This document shows, in pieces, positions 2,866-14,831 of a stretch of 27,244 bases of DNA; position 1 is the stretch's first letter; the number at the start of each line of letters is the position of its first letter. The position numbers were made by a program, and so were the translations under genes. Location of the stretch: positions 1-27,244 of the IMG/VR virus record IMGVR_UViG_3300025645_000370, one strand, 5' to 3'. Below the pieces are notes generated by a model. It worked only from the letters and a program-made list of their open reading frames with translations. It ran no database searches and was not told where the DNA came from. This DNA is from a virus.

Positions 2866-3396
2866 CTAATACCTTCCAGTATCAGCCATACGTTCAGCAT
2901 CCATTTTAAGCATCTTTAAGATAGGTTCAACCCTCTCGTTATACTTTGCCCTCAATTCCATCGGTAAAGTTCTGTAGACCTTCTCATTATCCGTTAAAAG
3001 CTCATCCTGCAACATTTCTACTTGTAAGTCCTTAGTAATATCCTTTGTGATGGTTCTAACGCTAGGCATTGAATTAGAGTTAAGAACACTCATAGCCCTG
3101 ATTAGTTTCTCCGCCAATTGATTTCTTAATGGATGGCGTTCATACGATGGATATATATTATTAGAGTTGTGTATAACCGTAGCATGGTCTCTATTGATTG
3201 GAATTCCAATTACCTCATAAGGAACTTTCTTGTCGAAGAACTTACGAGCCACCGCACAATAAACACTTCTAGCAATACAGTAATCTCTCTTTCTGGATTT
3301 GGTACTGATATCCATACCAGTCTCAATTAAAATGAATTCTACCATAGCATCTAAGGTAGTAAGGTCGTGCATTGTATTTTCTCTTGTGATTTTCAT
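2866..3396 (-). CDS. DnaA domain-IV-like DNA-binding protein
   Basis: A 176-residue protein whose first half matches the C-terminal DNA-binding domain of DnaA. Residues 39-80 contain a helical run with ARSVYCAVARKFF, and residues 67-81 read INRDHATVIHNSNNI, close to the DnaA signature GGRDHxTVxHA, with Arg, Asp, His and Thr kept. There is no AAA+ ATPase domain. Proteins of this kind in phages probably bind DnaA-box-like DNA and help recruit or block the initiator. The C-terminal half is helical and unknown. It follows the DUF932 gene after a terminator (3425-3449) and precedes the candidate origin region, which fits an origin-binding role (inference). Confidence 0.7.
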   Translation of the reverse strand: MKITRENTMHDLTTLDAMVEFILIETGMDISTKSRKRDYCIARSVYCAVARKFFDKKVPYEVIGIPINRDHATVIHNSNNIYPSYERHPLRNQLAEKLIRAMSVLNSNSMPSVRTITKDITKDLQVEMLQDELLTDNEKVYRTLPMELRAKYNERVEPILKMLKMDAERMADTGRY

Positions 3397-4763: not shown

Positions 4764-4997
4764 TCAAAGAGCATCTTTCCCATATACTTCTTTTAATAAA
4801 GGATTCTCATCCATAAATCTATCAATTGCCCTCTTTATTCCTGCACAACCTTCGTACTCCTCACTCTCGATTAACTCCTCAATGTATTCTAATAGCATTG
4901 GGATTGACAATTCGAAACTCTGTAACTTATAGTAGTAAATAGCCTCATAAGTAGTTATAATTTCTTCTCTGCTTAAATCTGAAATGTCTATCTGCAT
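4764..4997 (-). CDS. Hypothetical protein, 77 aa
   Basis: A small, strongly acidic, probably all-helical protein (IEELIESEEYEG region) with no motif I recognise. Its start is two bases from the end of the 5'-3' exonuclease gene, so it is the last gene of that operon and is probably translated together with it. The A/T-rich leader CTAAAATTAAACTTATTTT precedes the ATG. The acidic character might suit a partner of a DNA enzyme, but nothing shows this directly. Confidence 0.6.
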   Translation of the reverse strand: MQIDISDLSREEIITTYEAIYYYKLQSFELSIPMLLEYIEELIESEEYEGCAGIKRAIDRFMDENPLLKEVYGKDAL

Positions 4998-5661: not shown

Positions 5662-6313
5662 CTCTTCTCTCTAATATGTCTAATGCTATAAAATGAGCCT
5701 CCCTCCAAAATTCATACCCCTCGTCACTATTCATCCAATCGAAACAATGAATTATTCCACGACCTCGATACCAGTCTTCATCAAGATTAGGGGATTTTAA
5801 GTAGTTTTCAAAATAGTTTTTCATAAACGCCAGTCTAATATAGTCATCCTCGTCGCTCATAGCATATAACCACTCGTCAAACCAATCATCAAGGCTTGGC
5901 TTGGGCGTTGTTTCTTGCCCACAATCAATAGGGCAATTTACATCCATATTTCTAACGTCCATCTCACGCTCAATTTCCTTCTGGAGATTAGCTAATGCCC
6001 TCCAAGCTACCTTAGTTGAATGTCGTATTCCGTCCGTATCAAATGTTCCTGCATCAATTAAATGCCTAGCCAATGCATCCAATTCATCACCACTCTTGTC
6101 TCTATTCCAAAACAATGGTTGGTCTGGATTATGTTGGTCATTACCTACCTTTGAACATCTTGCAACATCCATTAATGCATCAGGAAAGTATTTAAGTACT
6201 CCTGAGTGAAGCGGAGTACTTTTTCTATAGGCGTGTTCACACCAAGGCTCTGCACCAGTTTCACACTCTTCTGTTCTTTTTTGGAAGTAATCTTCCACTA
6301 ATCTATTTGCCAT
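5651..6313 (-). CDS. dATP/dGTP diphosphohydrolase (MazZ-type domain)
   Basis: A 220-residue protein whose residues 36-118 match the all-alpha MazG-like domain described as dATP/dGTP diphosphohydrolase N-terminal (formerly DUF5664): GVLKYFPDALMDVA, then GNDQHNPDQPLFW, then KSGDELDALARHL, then HSTKVAWRALANLQKEIE. The acidic residues in GDELDA are the likely metal ligands. The MazZ enzyme of cyanophage S-2L cuts dGTP/dATP to the monophosphates and feeds 2-aminoadenine DNA synthesis; no PurZ or DatZ gene is visible here. The C-terminal half (131-220) is Trp- and acid-rich and unknown. It overlaps both neighbours by 11 bases, so expression is tightly coupled to the 5'-3' exonuclease. Confidence 0.75.
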   Translation of the reverse strand: MANRLVEDYFQKRTEECETGAEPWCEHAYRKSTPLHSGVLKYFPDALMDVARCSKVGNDQHNPDQPLFWNRDKSGDELDALARHLIDAGTFDTDGIRHSTKVAWRALANLQKEIEREMDVRNMDVNCPIDCGQETTPKPSLDDWFDEWLYAMSDEDDYIRLAFMKNYFENYLKSPNLDEDWYRGRGIIHCFDWMNSDEGYEFWREAHFIALDILERRDGE

Positions 6314-6575
6314 ATCGTTCTCTTATTTTAATTATTTGATTATTCTTTTCTTCCCGTATCTTAGAGTTCATAAACTGTAAATCATCAATCTCAAGTTCAA
6401 GGGAGTTGTTGTGAAGAAGGATTGCCATAAGCAATTCCTTCATTCGAATTACATCAGGATTGTTAGGTGATTTCTCATCCCACTTCTCTAGTATGGCAAC
6501 TGCCTCAAGATGGTCGGCATATGCCAGCACTCTTTTCTCGATTTGTGATTTTGTTTGTTTAATCTCGCTCATCAT
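6303..6575 (-). CDS. Hypothetical helical protein, 90 aa
   Basis: A charged, probably coiled-coil or helical protein that I do not recognise. An in-frame ATG exists at 6644, but a good promoter lies at 6592-6621, inside that extension, so I place the start at the double ATG at 6575/6572 (MMSEIKQ), about ten bases after the predicted transcription start. The leader is therefore very short. First gene of the operon running to 4764. Confidence 0.6.
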   Translation of the reverse strand: MMSEIKQTKSQIEKRVLAYADHLEAVAILEKWDEKSPNNPDVIRMKELLMAILLHNNSLELEIDDLQFMNSKIREEKNNQIIKIRERYGK

Positions 6576-7643: not shown

Positions 7644-8132
7644 TTACTCTTCTTCTTCTTGTGTTGCTACTTCAACACCAATCTTGTAATACTGTTCTAG
7701 CTTACGAACCATCTTTACAAATCCCTTTTGAGAACAATTAACACACGCACTAGGAACCACCTCTCGTTTATCAAATACATAATTGTAAATGTCCACAAGT
7801 CTCTTTTGCATAGTAGCATCTAATCTTGTTCGTACCCTGCTAAAAAAGGATTGTAAGTACTCATAATCCTCTTGCTCAATACATTTAACCGCCTTTTGTC
7901 TAAAGGGGAACTTCTCATTCATAAGGTCTTTTCTAGCACCACATCCACAATCACCAAATAATGTATCCACAACAGTTTTAATACCAGTTGCCGTCGTAAT
8001 CGCTTCAACGACATCGCCTGCACCTTTGGGTGCATTCTCTATCTGTTTTAGCTTAAACTCCTTCCAAAGTTTATACTCCTTTGTACGCTTATCTAACTCC
8101 TTGTAGTAAGCATCATCTTTAAATTTTGTCAT
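7644..8132 (-). CDS. Hypothetical protein with CGC and CVNC cysteines, 162 aa
   Basis: A charged protein with a central segment VTTATGIKTVVDTLFGDCGCGARKD (in parts: DCGCGARK near residue 61) and a later CVNC pair near residue 130. I associate this type with flavobacterial phages but know no function. The two cysteine pairs could bind one zinc ion. The C-terminus is an acidic EEEE tail. The start overlaps the end of the sigma-like gene by 14 bases, so the two are co-translated. Confidence 0.6.
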   Translation of the reverse strand: MTKFKDDAYYKELDKRTKEYKLWKEFKLKQIENAPKGAGDVVEAITTATGIKTVVDTLFGDCGCGARKDLMNEKFPFRQKAVKCIEQEDYEYLQSFFSRVRTRLDATMQKRLVDIYNYVFDKREVVPSACVNCSQKGFVKMVRKLEQYYKIGVEVATQEEEE

Positions 8133-8649
8133 AATCTCCGTTTTTTAAATCCTCGAAATCCTCTTCGAACTTATCCAAGATAATCTCTTTGTATTTATTA
8201 ATATTTTGATGGATATGAGTAACACCTATTCCAGTACCACTTGATATATCCCTCATGCTAAAATCTGTTTTAAAATAGACGTTAAATAACTTAGAATGAT
8301 AAGAACCCCAAGAATCGCTTTCTATCTGAATCTTGTCCATTATCTTCTGATAAGCCTCCTCATATTCAAAATCACTTTCCTCATCAGCCCAATTATAAAA
8401 GTCCTCCCAGTTACTATAAAAACTCTCATGCTTCGCTAGTGTTCGGAATGTATTTCTTACTACAGAGAACATATAGAAAGTATTTACTTCATTGTCTGGT
8501 AAGATAATCTTATGATAAACTGTTGGTGAATACTTGTGTAATCGGATGTAAGCCTCCTGAACTACATCCTCTGCTAAATGAGCAGGGCAACCATTAGCAA
8601 TTGCCATGGCTACCCATTCATCATGTCTTTGAACAAGTATTTCTAACAT
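8119..8649 (-). CDS. Sigma-70-like (ECF-type) transcription factor
   Basis: A 176-residue protein with features of a minimal sigma factor. Residues 26-40 (AEDVVQEAYIRLHKY) match region 2.2, the core-RNA-polymerase contact; residues 56-73 (NTFYMFSVVRNTFRTLAK) resemble the region 2.3/2.4 helix; a long acidic linker follows; residues 129-156 (DFSMRDISSGTGIGVTHIHQNINKY) resemble the region 4 helix-turn-helix that binds the -35 element. It could redirect host polymerase to phage promoters. Ambiguity remains because some phage HTH proteins mimic this layout. It lies in the middle of the replication transcript, overlapping the next gene. Confidence 0.65.
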   Translation of the reverse strand: MLEILVQRHDEWVAMAIANGCPAHLAEDVVQEAYIRLHKYSPTVYHKIILPDNEVNTFYMFSVVRNTFRTLAKHESFYSNWEDFYNWADEESDFEYEEAYQKIMDKIQIESDSWGSYHSKLFNVYFKTDFSMRDISSGTGIGVTHIHQNINKYKEIILDKFEEDFEDLKNGDYDKI

Positions 8650-9327: not shown

Positions 9328-10185
9328 TTAAAATGGTGTATCAGGTAGGGTTGCATCGATTACCTCTGGGAAACCATACCTATTAATAAAAAATTGAATA
9401 TCCTCGAATCCCATATTACGAGACCTCTTACACTTAGCAGTTGTTACATTACTATCCTCGTCTCTCTCCAATGAGATTTGCGTTTCCGTTTTCTTCTCAC
9501 AAAATGAACCCAAGTGACCCGTAGGCTTCTCTGAACCCCAATTGGAGTGTATAACGGTTATTATGTGTAAGTTATAATTTGCAGACCATTCCATCAACCT
9601 CTGAATACAACTATTAGCTTCTTCGATATTATTCACATCGCTTACTAAATCAGCAATACCATCAATAATGACTAGCCCTAAATTAGTATTAGTTTTAAGT
9701 TTATGGTCAATAAACCTCATTCTGTCTTTATATCCTATCGTTCTTAGTGAGTACGTATGATAACCTTCTGTCTCCTCAGCCATTTCCGAAACCCTTCTAA
9801 AAGCCCTCTGACAATGCCACTTGCCCTGCTCCGTATCGAAATGCATAACCTCTCTACCTTCTCTATGACTCTTGCCTTTATCACCAACCCATCTATTCTG
9901 ACTTTTAAGATAAGTACTAGCCAACAACGCAACAAAGTACGATTTAAACGTCTTAGGAGGGGCTTGGATGAACGAAAAATTCCCATAGGTACAAATAGGT
10001 GTCTCAGCCTCAAAAACGCCCTTAGAAGTCGTATATGTGTGTTTTCCATAGGACAATGCGACTGGAGGAGGAGGAATAATTTCATCTAGTGGAATGTTGA
10101 GGTCTGTCTCAAGCATTTCGCAATACATTCTTTCAATTTCCTCTTCTTCTGCCCGACTTATTTTTCTTTTATTGTTTTGATTCAT
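9328..10185 (-). CDS. RepA-like AAA/RecA-fold ATPase (helicase-like)
   Basis: A 285-residue RecA-fold ATPase of the RepA/AAA_25 type. The Walker A site is atypical: QAPPKTFKS (residues 74-82) keeps the catalytic K81-S82 but lacks the usual glycines. Walker B is LGLVIIDGIADL (D175). A THxxG-like segment VIHSNWGSEKPTGHLGS (211-227) and an ILxKKTETQ-type strand follow, as in hexameric replicative helicases/RepA. It probably acts as the replicative helicase or as a helicase loader/annealing motor. It follows the SSB-like gene after a terminator, has the leader ACACACACAAATG and is followed by co-translated genes. Confidence 0.75.
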   Translation of the reverse strand: MNQNNKRKISRAEEEEIERMYCEMLETDLNIPLDEIIPPPPVALSYGKHTYTTSKGVFEAETPICTYGNFSFIQAPPKTFKSYFVALLASTYLKSQNRWVGDKGKSHREGREVMHFDTEQGKWHCQRAFRRVSEMAEETEGYHTYSLRTIGYKDRMRFIDHKLKTNTNLGLVIIDGIADLVSDVNNIEEANSCIQRLMEWSANYNLHIITVIHSNWGSEKPTGHLGSFCEKKTETQISLERDEDSNVTTAKCKRSRNMGFEDIQFFINRYGFPEVIDATLPDTPF

Positions 10186-10256: not shown

Positions 10257-10544
10257 CTAAAATGGAAGGTCATCTTCAGTGTCCTCTGCAACATTTACTT
10301 CTGCCATACCATCATCCTCACGCTCCGCCAGAACAACACTTCCATCAGTCCACACGACTGAACCATTACCAATATACGTTTTGGCAGTCTTTGCCTCACG
10401 CTCTTCTTTTGTTTGGTCAACCGCAATCGAGCAGTTATTTCCAAATCGACTCTCGTCATTAACACTTAGGATGAGATTTGCGTAAGTTCCTTTCTTACCT
10501 TTGATAAGTTTAGACTTATCGATTGCATCTAAATTGATGCTCAT
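10257..10544 (-). CDS. Single-stranded DNA-binding-like protein
   Basis: A 95-residue protein ending in EDTEDDLPF, the acidic tail plus terminal DLPF typical of bacterial SSB, where it docks replication and repair enzymes. The body (SKLIKGKKGTYANLILSVN, then SRFGNNCSIAVDQTKEERE, then YIGNGSVVW) is a small beta-rich fold seen in Bacteroidota phages. I expect it to coat single-stranded DNA during replication and recombination. The start is set at MSINLDAID; an in-frame ATG at 10562 is possible. It has its own promoter (10608-10640) and terminator (10209-10240), as suits a protein needed in large amounts. Confidence 0.75.
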   Translation of the reverse strand: MSINLDAIDKSKLIKGKKGTYANLILSVNDESRFGNNCSIAVDQTKEEREAKTAKTYIGNGSVVWTDGSVVLAEREDDGMAEVNVAEDTEDDLPF

Positions 10545-10607
10545 TTTAATTAATGCTCCCATAATTTCTTTTGTTTAGGATATTGGATTAATAAATAATT
10601 TACTTTG

Positions 10608-10860: not shown

Positions 10861-11433
10861 TTAAGTTAATTTTGGTTGGGTGTAAGTTCCGTATTGGAAT
10901 CTTACTTTTCCCTTCTCGTCTTTTGCACCTAGGTACATTAACTTTCCATCTTGGAATTGGCTAAACCAAACCCATGCTTTAAGTTTTAATTCATAAGTCT
11001 GTTTAACCTTATTGCCTTCAACTTTGAATTCATTAGGATTAAGTTTAATTTGAATAACTGGATAGTCATATAATTCTCTTCCGAGACCCCAATTGAAACA
11101 CGCTCGCTTGAATGCATCGCTCGCCTCTCCTTTGTCACCATCAGCCATAGACTTAACTCCTGCATCCCACTTAATAACCCATTGCTGAGTTTCATGGTTG
11201 TAGATACTAACGCCACAGAAGGTTACTCCGTTAACAGAGGTATATTCTCGTTGCCACCCAAAGACACCGCACACCTCATCTAGTCGCTTCATGTCGACTC
11301 TCGCATCCTTATAAGCAAGGATTGTTGCATACCCTCCTTTATTAATCGATTGTACTCTGAAATCAATATCTGAGATTGGCAGTGGCACAGATAGTGCCTC
11401 TTGAATATTCATTACTTTTTCTGGTTTTTCCAT
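10861..11433 (-). CDS. Rad52/Rad22-like single-strand annealing protein
   Basis: A 190-residue protein with the Rad52/Rad22-family signature: an N-terminal beta region (FRVQSINKGGYATILAYKDARV, in parts from residue 25), the DEVCGVFGWQREY segment at 52-64, and the diagnostic KGEASDAFKRACFNWGLGRELYDYP at 101-125. Such proteins form rings that anneal complementary single strands and drive phage recombination. The neighbouring 5'-3' exonuclease and SSB-like protein would complete a recombination set. The C-terminus (150-190) carries the GTYTQPKLT tail. The stop codon lies 17 bases before the lipoprotein start. Confidence 0.8.
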   Translation of the reverse strand: MEKPEKVMNIQEALSVPLPISDIDFRVQSINKGGYATILAYKDARVDMKRLDEVCGVFGWQREYTSVNGVTFCGVSIYNHETQQWVIKWDAGVKSMADGDKGEASDAFKRACFNWGLGRELYDYPVIQIKLNPNEFKVEGNKVKQTYELKLKAWVWFSQFQDGKLMYLGAKDEKGKVRFQYGTYTQPKLT

Positions 11434-11558: not shown

Positions 11559-11698
11559 AACTTCTCGTTTTGCTGTTTAATTTTATGGTTTCGGTATAAG
11601 ATATCTTCCTGAGATAGATTTAAAGCATGTATCTCTTCGTTCTTGGTCATTGTAATAGGATTCAAATCCTTCTTCCAAAATGCTACACACTTGCTCAT
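11555..11698 (-). CDS. Mini-protein, 47 aa
   Basis: A 47-residue basic ORF, starting MSKCVAFWKKDL. It is tied to both neighbours by four-base ATGA overlaps (with the 92-aa gene upstream and the 40-aa gene downstream), the usual sign of translational coupling. No recognised motif. Confidence 0.5.
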   Translation of the reverse strand: MSKCVAFWKKDLNPITMTKNEEIHALNLSQEDILYRNHKIKQQNEKL

Positions 11699-11973
11699 AC
11701 CGATTCGATTACGTAGTTAATAGCTCTTTTCATAACTGGCTCTTCGGTTAGCTTGAATAAATATTCTCCTAAAACCCAACATTCCCATTCGTTACCTGAC
11801 ATAAATGGCTCATTAGGCACATTAGACAATACCAATTTCGATGCATAATATTCAATAATAGATTCTAAGGATTTTCTTGCTTTCCTTTTGCTGGAAAAAA
11901 CTCTATGCTCTATGGTATACTCACCGTTAGTACCAATACTTTTTTTCGTGACTCTTAAGATGTAAACTCTCAT
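11695..11973 (-). CDS. Hypothetical protein, 92 aa
   Basis: A basic protein with a short beta-type start (MRVYILRV), a KRKARKSLESIIEYY helix and a Trp-containing middle. I do not recognise it. It heads a chain of overlapping small genes leading to the Rad52-like gene. The ATG is preceded, at 12003-12010, by TAAGTTTG on the minus strand, a match to the -7 consensus, but without a good TTG upstream. Confidence 0.55.
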   Translation of the reverse strand: MRVYILRVTKKSIGTNGEYTIEHRVFSSKRKARKSLESIIEYYASKLVLSNVPNEPFMSGNEWECWVLGEYLFKLTEEPVMKRAINYVIESV

Positions 11974-12052
11974 AATGAAAATGTTTAATGATTAATATGA
12001 GACAAACTTAAATAAAAAAAACTTACCATCCTAATAAAAAGTAAAAAATAAT

Positions 12053-12397
12053 TTAAAATAATTCCATAATGGGAATAAGAAAACCTTCGGAAGTATTGTT
12101 ATCACCGCCTTTAAAGATTCTTCCTTTTTTATAATGCCTCCTGCATATTTTCTTCAATATTGACGTTTCTATTAAAATAAAGCTAGAATTAATTGCAAAG
12201 CAATACCAATCTGCTTCCGTAGTAGAAATACCACTTAGCTTTCCTCTAGAACGAAACTCTACATAGACATTGCCAGTTCTCGGAGTCATTAAATCCCTTT
12301 TAACCTCTATTTTTTTACCAGCTAAGACTTCCCCAAGTTCCTGCTCTTTAATTTGCCCTACCAGTAGGTCGTATTTGAAGTCTGAATTATAATTCAA
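12053..12397 (-). CDS. PD-(D/E)XK nuclease-like protein, 114 aa
   Basis: A small protein with the PD-(D/E)XK core: D10 in FKYDLLVG, then E31-V-K33 in KKIEVKRD, then a beta strand with GNVYVEFRSRGKLSGISTT and the EADWYCF segment. This layout resembles phage Holliday-junction resolvase-like or 'restriction-like' single-domain nucleases that preserve ExK plus GN-x(3)-E. It would cut branched or specific DNA during replication or packaging. Its start overlaps the next nuclease gene by four bases, so the two nucleases are co-translated. Confidence 0.65.
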   Translation of the reverse strand: MNYNSDFKYDLLVGQIKEQELGEVLAGKKIEVKRDLMTPRTGNVYVEFRSRGKLSGISTTEADWYCFAINSSFILIETSILKKICRRHYKKGRIFKGGDNNTSEGFLIPIMELF

Positions 12398-12840
12398 AAC
12401 TTATATGATTTGATTAATTTTATTACATCTAAACAGTCAGCCTGATTTTTAGGCATAAACAGAACTACATTAGGTCTATTTTCCATCAACCATTTTTTAA
12501 ACAACTTGTATCGCAAAGGAAAAGTCTCATTTGCTCTGCCTTTGCATTCAATGATAAAGGCAGGATGAACGAAGTCTGGAGTATATTTCATTCCCCTAAC
12601 AACCCTTCTACCTTTATTAGTCATTTGCTTTGACTTAGGTGAAGTCTCCCAAGAGTCCGAGGTAAATTTAAAAGAGTCCATTATATTAAATGATTCTCCT
12701 TCATATATTGCAGGGATTCCTTCCTGCTTTAAAAGCGTATACATAAAAGCCTCTAGTGATGAATCGAATTGAATTCCATCAACTATCTTCTTATTACTTT
12801 GAACTACCTTTCTTCCAGTTCTCCTCCTTTTGTATTTCAT
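12394..12840 (-). CDS. DUF1064-like endonuclease (PD-(D/E)XK)
   Basis: A 148-residue nuclease. Conserved positions are E30 in SSLEAFMY, P88-D89 in KYTPDFV, and E98-C-K100 in FIIECKGR, followed by FPLRYKLFKKWL, a pattern I associate with the phage DUF1064 endonucleases. The N-terminus is very basic (KYKRRRTGRK) and could bind DNA. Candidate roles are junction resolution or degradation of host DNA. Overlaps its neighbours on both sides (4 bases and 1 base), with TAATG coupling to the M15-like gene. Confidence 0.7.
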   Translation of the reverse strand: MKYKRRRTGRKVVQSNKKIVDGIQFDSSLEAFMYTLLKQEGIPAIYEGESFNIMDSFKFTSDSWETSPKSKQMTNKGRRVVRGMKYTPDFVHPAFIIECKGRANETFPLRYKLFKKWLMENRPNVVLFMPKNQADCLDVIKLIKSYKF

Positions 12841-13259
12841 TAGTGTACGTATAACGAGTCTTTGTATAGATAGTTATCAGTATCAAATTCTACATACTTC
12901 ATAGATACCGCTATTCTAGTAACCCCCCTTAATATTAAATTTTTAACTATGAACATTCTCTTTTCTGGAGATGGAGCGGACAAACGAACCGCCTTACCTA
13001 CTCTAAACGCAGATTTAGTTGGTAGACCCAACAAATCAGCTACTGACTTACTAGTGTATGCTAATTCAACCACTGGTCTCCAATTATAATGTTCGACTAT
13101 GATATCATCTAAAACCAATACTGGCTCTCGCTCCATAAACCTAAAAGCACTACCTTCTGCATCAGGTGAGTCAAACATCTCCCAATACAAATTACGCAAT
13201 CCCTCTGTATTAAAGGAGTCACGCTCTTGTCTTTTAAATCGTCTAGGCTTAAATATCAT
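12840..13259 (-). CDS. M15-peptidase-like protein lacking zinc ligands
   Basis: A 139-residue protein whose residues 64-128 follow the phage peptidase M15A (D-Ala-D-Ala carboxypeptidase-like) pattern: SAFRVGKAVRL aligns with SAHxxGxAVDI, SPEKRMFIVKNLILRGVTRI aligns with the following helix, and KYVEFDTD aligns with KTFIHVDTD. All three zinc ligands are replaced: His by F85, Asp by R92, His by E124. The fold therefore seems kept while catalysis should be lost. It is not in the lysis cassette but at the head of the replication module, coupled to a nuclease. Alignment is by eye; remote similarity could mislead. Confidence 0.5.
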   Translation of the reverse strand: MIFKPRRFKRQERDSFNTEGLRNLYWEMFDSPDAEGSAFRFMEREPVLVLDDIIVEHYNWRPVVELAYTSKSVADLLGLPTKSAFRVGKAVRLSAPSPEKRMFIVKNLILRGVTRIAVSMKYVEFDTDNYLYKDSLYVH

Positions 13260-13445
13260 TTAGTTCATCCAACTCTCAACAATAACCCCAATTAACCAAT
13301 AACAACTAATAATACCTAAGAATGCTAATCCCGAAATAGTAACCTTTAGCGATTGAGGCTGATTTTCATCTTTCAATAGTTGAGGCAAAGTGTGTACATT
13401 AGATAGTGTAAAAATTAAACATACAATTAAAACAACATAATTCAT
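13260..13445 (-). CDS. Small two-TM membrane protein, 61 aa
   Basis: Two hydrophobic segments, residues 3-18 and 36-56, separated by a charged loop (LLKDENQPQSLK). The size and topology fit a small phage membrane protein such as a holin or antiholin, but also many others. It is the first gene of the replication module, after the gene-free boundary, and its stop directly abuts the next start. No motif allows a firmer call. Confidence 0.5.
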   Translation of the reverse strand: MNYVVLIVCLIFTLSNVHTLPQLLKDENQPQSLKVTISGLAFLGIISCYWLIGVIVESWMN

Positions 13446-13792: not shown

Positions 13793-14284
13793 TTAACGTT
13801 TTCCTATTAAAGGTGTTTTATCCTTTGAACCTTGGCTTGAACCAAAGAAAAAGTTGAATATAGAACCTAGTCCATTACCAACCACAATACCTAATATAAA
13901 ATTTATAACATCCCTATTCTCAGTGGGTATGTCTATGAAAAATAATAAAAGAACTATTACACACGCAAAAGCAAATGTACCTATTGATAAATAATAAAGG
14001 AATCGCTTCGAGAATATATCGTCCTGCTTTAGGGCAGTCCTCTGTAATTCTCTCGCATCCTTCAAGTCGGCTAAGTCTAACTCGGCTTGTTTTAATATAT
14101 CTTCTTTGGTTTCTTTTGTGATAGTAGGGTCTGTTGCTACCAATGCCTTAACCGCTCCAAACCAATCACCAGTACCTATCTCTCCAGCTACGTTAACCGC
14201 CTTCTCTAAGATATTACTCTTTCCAATTGAACGCAATAAATCTCCTACTCTTGTAGTTCCGTTCCTTTCTTTATAATCTCCCAT
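13793..14284 (-). CDS. Holin, GTA-holin/3TM-like
   Basis: A 163-residue protein: an N-terminal soluble part, an amphipathic segment LADLKDARELQRTALKQDDIFSKRFLYYL (in parts from residue 71), two membrane segments (about 96-118 and 125-147) and a tail SSQGSKDKT. This matches the GTA_holin_3TM-type phage proteins, with the QDD-x-SKR-F and GNGLGSIFNFFFGSSQGSK features. It would permeabilise the inner membrane so that the endolysin, encoded directly upstream, can reach the cell wall. It is the last gene of the late module, and an iteron-like copy lies immediately before its start. Confidence 0.7.
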   Translation of the reverse strand: MGDYKERNGTTRVGDLLRSIGKSNILEKAVNVAGEIGTGDWFGAVKALVATDPTITKETKEDILKQAELDLADLKDARELQRTALKQDDIFSKRFLYYLSIGTFAFACVIVLLLFFIDIPTENRDVINFILGIVVGNGLGSIFNFFFGSSQGSKDKTPLIGKR

Positions 14285-14360: not shown

Positions 14361-14831
14361 TTATTCCCAATTTTTATACTTAGTTCTTCCTTTGTCATCG
14401 GTATAAGCTACCAATACTTGACCTCTATTATTTCCTTCTGAATACGATACATGAACCCAAGCAGGATTTTTATGTGTTCCGAATTCCCATATTAATTGGT
14501 CGAACTCTACGTTCTCCCTTAACCAATCAAATAATTCAGCATTGGTTATTTCACCAAATACATCACAATCGATATCAATCGCTTCACCTCTCATATGAGA
14601 AGAAGAACTAGAACCTCCTGCCTTACGATTAACAGCTAGACTCCGATAAAAAGAGGATATGAATAACGGAACATTAAAATGTTCCCTTGCAGGCTGAAAT
14701 ACGTTTTCAGCAGTTATCTTCATCTGTTTTAAGATGTCTATGTTTGGTCTATTATTAAGACCATACCTTTGTGCTACACTAGACCTTACAGCCTCGTTAT
14801 AGCTAATGTTTTTACTTATATTATTACCCAT
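14361..14831 (-). CDS. Endolysin, peptidase M15 (D,D-/L,D-carboxypeptidase-like)
   Basis: A 156-residue M15 zinc peptidase. The site is complete: S78-H79-M-R-G-E-A-I-D86 matches SxHxxGxAxD, and W126-V-H127 near the C-terminus supplies the last ligand. The middle segment LFISSFYRSLAVNRKAGG is the family's SGYRSxxxNxxVGG. It cleaves peptide cross-links in peptidoglycan at the end of infection. There is no signal peptide, so release depends on a holin, in line with the membrane proteins encoded around it. The C-terminal part RGQVLVAYTDDKGRTKYKNW is usual for this group. Overlaps the gene upstream by 8 bases. Confidence 0.85.
   Translation of the reverse strand: MGNNISKNISYNEAVRSSVAQRYGLNNRPNIDILKQMKITAENVFQPAREHFNVPLFISSFYRSLAVNRKAGGSSSSSHMRGEAIDIDCDVFGEITNAELFDWLRENVEFDQLIWEFGTHKNPAWVHVSYSEGNNRGQVLVAYTDDKGRTKYKNWE

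Follow-up and report, generated by a model that had tools for sequence, protein, structure and literature searches.

A zinc-free M15-fold protein encoded between the lysis and recombination genes of a phage is probably a former endolysin kept for a non-catalytic role

The open reading frame at 12840-13259 (minus strand) of the window, a 27,244-base virus record that carries nearly all of its genes on the minus strand, encodes a 139-aa protein that sequence comparison and a predicted structure place, by descent and fold, among the M15_3 peptidases, and that has none of their zinc ligands. We consider it probable that this is a pseudo-endolysin: an ancestral endolysin that lost catalysis once another lysin took over and that was kept for a non-catalytic role. 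The zinc-less fold is kept in dozens of viruses, nearly always alongside another lysin, so a second, non-cutting job is very probable. The sequence-only reading had also taken the retention of a dead peptidase fold to imply a new role, and this agrees with our analysis; it missed the graded series of relatives, the probable ancestral endolysin slot and the association with another lysin.

The gene lies between a lysis cassette and a replication module, with all of the genes listed in this paragraph on the minus strand. Upstream, at 14361-14831, is an intact M15_3 endolysin (PF08291, E 7.5e-17; phrog_894 endolysin, E 8e-31) in the position before the holin, which we call slot A. A putative holin (13793-14284), assigned from its hydrophobic segments, its position and a layout shared with relatives, lies between the two M15 genes, and a short membrane protein of 61 aa (13260-13445) is encoded directly upstream of the pseudo-M15 gene, which occupies slot B. 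On the other side, a DUF1064 / Holliday-junction-resolvase-like nuclease gene (12394-12840), conserved as the next gene within the window's own clade, has one base in common with the pseudo-M15 gene. Further along are a Rad52/Erf-like single-strand annealing protein (10861-11433), an SSB-like small protein (10257-10562; recognized by position and likeness to relatives, with no Pfam match) and a RecA-like AAA_25 ATPase of the replication module (9328-10185). The sequence-only reading had placed the gene in a DNA module beside two nucleases, with an intact M15 endolysin elsewhere. The module position and the endolysin stand, as does the nuclease at 12394-12840; the supposed second nuclease (12053-12397) matches only phrog_13596, a family of unknown function. 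The latter protein has an E-V-K stretch resembling PD-(D/E)XK enzymes and gave no match to a nuclease profile. By portal protein, the nearest isolated phages are Nonlabens (Persicivirga) phages P12024L/S (35% identity), which makes a flavobacterial host likely, and we regard the virus as probably a marine phage of flavobacteria.

The reading frame runs from an ATG to a stop codon that shares one base with the ATG of the next gene. The protein has no Pfam match (PF08291 included), no significant PHROG match and no match to the Hedgehog signal family HH_signal (PF01085); repeat matches to a fucose-binding lectin in a PDB sequence search were judged to reflect a chance motif. Among ORFs of related phages, the single window sequence matches intact M15 endolysins (phmmer E 1.4e-4), and compared with 20 aligned intact M15 proteins of slot A it reaches an hhalign probability of 97.3% (E 2.5e-11), rising to 99.7% (E 1.1e-25 over 117 columns) with a 12-sequence family profile. 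AlphaFold2, run with a 110-row alignment of the window and locus proteins, predicts the fold with confidence (pLDDT 91.7, pTM 0.84). Because intact M15 rows were part of that alignment, the fold call is not independent of them, and the single-sequence profile comparison serves as the independent check; an AlphaFold2 model from the single sequence (pLDDT 35) was set aside. The solved structure ranked first by Foldseek for the predicted fold is 1lbu, a family M15 zinc DD-carboxypeptidase (Z 12.7 by VIA-align over 119 residues, rmsd 3.0; rank 2 has Z 7.9). M15C endolysins and Hedgehog domains follow at Z 7-8, and 30 viral models, many of them named peptidase M15, match at E 0.001 or better. The profile search and the structure prediction that had been proposed as checks of the M15 assignment both point to this fold.

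In the M15 DD-carboxypeptidase the zinc ligands are H154, D161 and H197, and R138 is the substrate arginine (PMC11266112). Profile alignment to 1lbu places R138, H154 and D161 on window columns 69, 85 and 92. The first ligand position, His in intact enzymes, is F85 (minus-strand codon 13005-13007), and the second, Asp in intact enzymes, is R92 (12984-12986); the third, the second His, is E124 (12888-12890), as placed by alignment to the FIHxD motif of intact relatives. The replaced triad F85, R92 and E124 within an M15 fold, as originally read from the sequence, is borne out by the hhalign matches, by the AlphaFold2 model with its likeness to 1lbu and by the column alignment. In principle E124 could contact a metal; F85 and R92 could not. 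Loss of the ligands predicts that the protein does not hydrolyze peptidoglycan. The substrate arginine position is also changed: the window has T69 (13053-13055), the far slot-B group has T, V or L, and all slot-A rows have R. Because this arginine is lost too, peptidoglycan binding by the slot-B protein, which had been suggested earlier, is less likely.

The relatives of the protein come from uncultivated viral contigs, mostly marine. The single sequence retrieved no relative from phages, viral contigs or genome contigs, and the family was recovered only once distant intact M15 genes were put into the query alignment; alignment scans of IMG/VR then gave overlapping sets of 58, 79 and 80 family loci. 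A second scan of genome contigs with the family profile found no match, and so no prophage host, and the altered slot-B form was not found in the collection of isolated phages that was searched.

Among 355 M15 rows, the slot-B triads are HDH, HHH, HEY, HIY, HVY, HKY, HRY, HQY, YRE, FRY and FRE, while slot-A endolysins keep the H and D. The closest relatives of the window protein (L181-L188, 63-73% identity) have FRE, YRE or FRY; a wider group has HRY, HQY or HKY, without the Asp and the second His, further groups have HHH, HEY, HIY or HVY, and a few members have intact HDH. A loss local to the window, which would have counted against the sequence-only reading, is rejected on these grounds, and the nearest clade shows no return to the His/Asp/His ligands. 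Taken together, the triads form a graded series with the window substitutions as its end point, in which HHH members could still bind zinc. In total, 202 rows carry the slot-B residue R44, including a few slot-A endolysins by position and many near-copies, and 85 are left at <93% identity. Four HDH rows (L235, L236, L268 and L312) that are slot B by residue 44 alone and slot A by position were removed by hand; L175, of the same kind, stayed in the tree and was uncounted, having no lysin state.

Scores against PF08291 fall along the series from 61 bits (HDH) to 27 (HHH) and 23 (HKY), and then to none. HHH and HIY types match both PF08291 and phrog_894; for the HRY members and L181, neither Pfam nor PHROGs gives a match. 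The window protein's family is a new one, covered by neither Pfam nor PHROGs. Proteins of slot B that are scored as M15 peptidase or endolysin, the HHH and HIY types for example, may not be lysins, and their annotation should be read with this in mind.

Slot B is a recognizable place in these genomes. Across tens of contigs the order is lysin, holin, in some cases a small gene, slot-B M15, Erf, SSB and AAA ATPase. In the tree, a single supported clade unites the slot-A rows and excludes those of slot B. At least 13 changes at the second-ligand position are needed on the slot-B tree, a pattern consistent with a site freed from binding metal. Slot-B proteins share an extra residue at position 39, R44, mostly E45, and K100, irrespective of the state of the zinc site; R44, E45 and K100 are near-invariant in slot B and lacking or variable in slot A. 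This signature is independent of the zinc site and is the best sign of a non-catalytic function. Conserved blocks, among them FMEREPV and FDTD, lie away from the old metal site.

The slot-B family is under purifying selection, like the intact enzymes, with pooled dN/dS of 0.30 for the HRY/HQY/HKY/YRE/FRE/FRY rows, 0.15 for HHH, 0.12 for HEY/HIY/HVY and 0.30 for HDH rows. In the window's clade, the L185-L187 pair has dS 0.18 and dN 0.007. Between the window gene and its nearest relatives dS is saturated, so purifying selection is shown for the family rather than for the window gene by itself. With catalytic residues lost, and with fold and gene conserved under selection at the family level, the protein qualifies as a pseudopeptidase.

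Some related phages that have a lysin lack slot B altogether (L118, L166 and L062), indicating that its function is not universal. Phages without slot B often have, at that place, NinG preceded by a gene of 80-96 aa (‘EDLT’ here; L118:14105-14344 and homologues), which in other phages precedes the slot-B gene and is common to phages with and without slot B. Replacement of NinG by the slot-B gene was considered and rejected: several slot-B phages carry NinG or DUF1064 at another place, which points to rearrangement more than to functional replacement. Several relatives (L158:4536-4721, L147:1009-1212 and L333:6079-6315) have, between the slot-B gene and Erf, a short ORF of coiled-coil character whose motif resembles LFEVTDPECP..YKDVVR.EI and which has no Pfam match.

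Zinc-site loss is found where another lysin is present, a correlation that is strong by counts and comprises few independent events. Where at least 2.6 kb of upstream sequence is in hand, a further lysin lies upstream in 111 of 112 cases of altered slot-B genes, and in 70 of 70 once near-copies are removed. The exception is the second of two gene copies in L202, at 11625; the first, at 5992, has upstream of it an M15 at 4769. In this contig the slot-B gene with its SSB and AAA neighbours occurs twice (5992-6372 and 11625-12005), reflecting a terminal duplication or an assembly artefact. The upstream lysins are of four kinds: short M15 HDH, long M15, Amidase_2 and GH24 lysozyme. Lysin types swap freely at the one pre-holin position (L083:20342-20752, L181:1419-1859, L186:2076-2528). 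Intact slot-B genes are the sole lysin found in six of eight non-redundant cases, and another lysin is present in the other two; L294 and L296 have an intact slot B together with a second M15. Each of five 33-38 kb records with an intact slot-B gene has exactly one M15, and no match to Amidase_2, Phage_lysozyme, M23 or SLT was found in these possibly incomplete records. By parsimony the intact or lost state changes only twice, and only two independent pairs exist; the sign test, for which six pairs would be needed, is not significant, and with two pairs a phylogenetic test of the association has no power. Separately, two phages in which the intact slot-B M15 is the only lysin have a small ORF with a signal-peptide-like start at the place of the slot-A lysin (L281:4217-4549 and L291:4733-5056); that of L281 has no Pfam match.

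How might such a series have come about? We propose that the endolysin of the phage was once encoded in slot B and already had a second, non-catalytic function. Once another lysin had taken over lysis, the zinc site would have decayed, leaving only the second function. With lower certainty, that function may lie in binding, during infection, a protein of the phage or of the host, or DNA, and the binding might regulate expression, replication or the timing of lysis, in the way that T7 lysozyme acts on T7 RNA polymerase. The binding face would comprise R44, E45, K100/R101 and R/K89, and an R92-E124 contact may fill the former zinc site.

As to what the second function is, the candidate that survives best, still a doubtful one, is a regulator in the manner of T7 lysozyme. 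It would bind a polymerase of the phage or of the host (RNA polymerase, a phage sigma-like factor or the replisome) and adjust the middle-to-late switch in expression. T7 gene 3.5, which encodes a lysin fold, sits in a block of DNA-metabolism genes, and the slot-B gene follows the same genomic logic. T7 lysozyme has two functions (PMC5445346), the second of them regulatory, and a helix-turn-helix gene at 8119-8649 in the same module of the window, possibly sigma-like, adds a weak hint. Unlike the slot-B protein, T7 lysozyme (gp3.5) has an amidase fold unrelated to M15 and is still catalytic; no polymerase gene adjoins slot B, and no counterpart of T7 RNA polymerase as a partner was found here.

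Nucleic-acid binding, in which the fold would now serve the Erf recombination module as a small, basic accessory that binds DNA or RNA, is a less likely role. Erf, SSB and a nuclease are neighbours, the window protein has a charge of +3 and a pI of 9.2, and mean net charge is +2.9 in slot B vs 0.0 in slot A (Mann-Whitney p 8e-7, with rows that are not independent). Basic residues K100 and R/K89 were gained, as were R86, R94 and K99 in the far group. However, basic charge is weak evidence, and intact and HIY slot-B members have a net charge of about -1 despite R44 and K100.

Equally unlikely is a dead paralogue that delays or tunes lysis by binding the active endolysin, the holin or cell-wall precursors. 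The slot-B gene does lie one or two genes past the endolysin and holin, and active cousins are sometimes regulated by pseudoenzymes (PMC11266112). Yet the accompanying lysin may be an M15, an amidase or a lysozyme, and this variation makes a direct, M15-specific endolysin partner unlikely; the substrate arginine is lost, and hydropathy shows no signal peptide or membrane segment in the slot-B protein.

Two further readings are very improbable. A functionless, redundant gene decaying toward loss would suit the high divergence and the coincidence of ligand loss with another lysin, but frames are open throughout, dN/dS, at about 0.3, matches that of the intact enzymes, conserved residues lie outside the zinc site and the slot is kept across many contigs. 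A pocket rebuilt for a different reaction using H85, R92 and Y124 would account for the near-constancy of H85 and Y124 in the HRY/HQY/HKY groups, but position 92 varies freely in slot B (R, Q, K, I, V, E, H), and in the window clade H85, and in most cases Y124, has given way to another residue.

The pseudo-endolysin reading has parallels in known systems. The M15 endolysins of PF08291 (Peptidase_M15_3) and phrog_894 have the same fold and lysis-cassette neighbourhood, and the slot-B family shares the M15_3 motif frame (FD.P...SG...M, SxxxxGxA, R101, RIxV, FxxD); unlike them, the window protein lacks the zinc ligands and the substrate arginine and occupies a replication-side slot. In Hedgehog, a pseudopeptidase with the M15 fold, partners bind at the pseudo-active site (PMC11266112), and the N-terminal domain of Sonic hedgehog, which uses an M15-related fold for protein binding rather than catalysis, aligns with the window model at Z about 7. 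In contrast to the window protein, whose ligands are gone, Hedgehog is an animal signal that keeps its zinc site, and we found no evidence of close kinship. In the open-access literature we found no description of an inactive M15 endolysin relative in phages.

What this locus offers is a natural series in steps: at one end stands an intact endolysin that is the only lysin, at the other a zinc-free protein with a replacement lysin next door. The series makes testable whether a second function, such as T7 lysozyme has, was present before catalysis was lost. It is conceivable, at somewhat less than even chances, that the endolysins of this phage group were bifunctional, with a regulatory or scaffolding role in the replication phase as important as lysis, and that lysin replacement exposed it. 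If so, the zinc-free M15 proteins would be natural separation-of-function forms of an endolysin.

P12024L/S share the order portal, endolysin, holin, Erf and SSB with the window, and a slot-B M15 gene was looked for in them and not found. The helix-turn-helix protein at 8119-8649 has a weak UPF0122 match and is perhaps like the annotated sigma-70 region 2 gene of P12024L. Elsewhere in the window, 2866-3396 encodes a phage protein with the DnaA C-terminal DNA-binding helix-turn-helix domain (Bac_DnaA_C). A 5,135-base contig from another record (L082) has a portal 100% identical to that of the window, so this phage or a near twin is present in more than one assembly.
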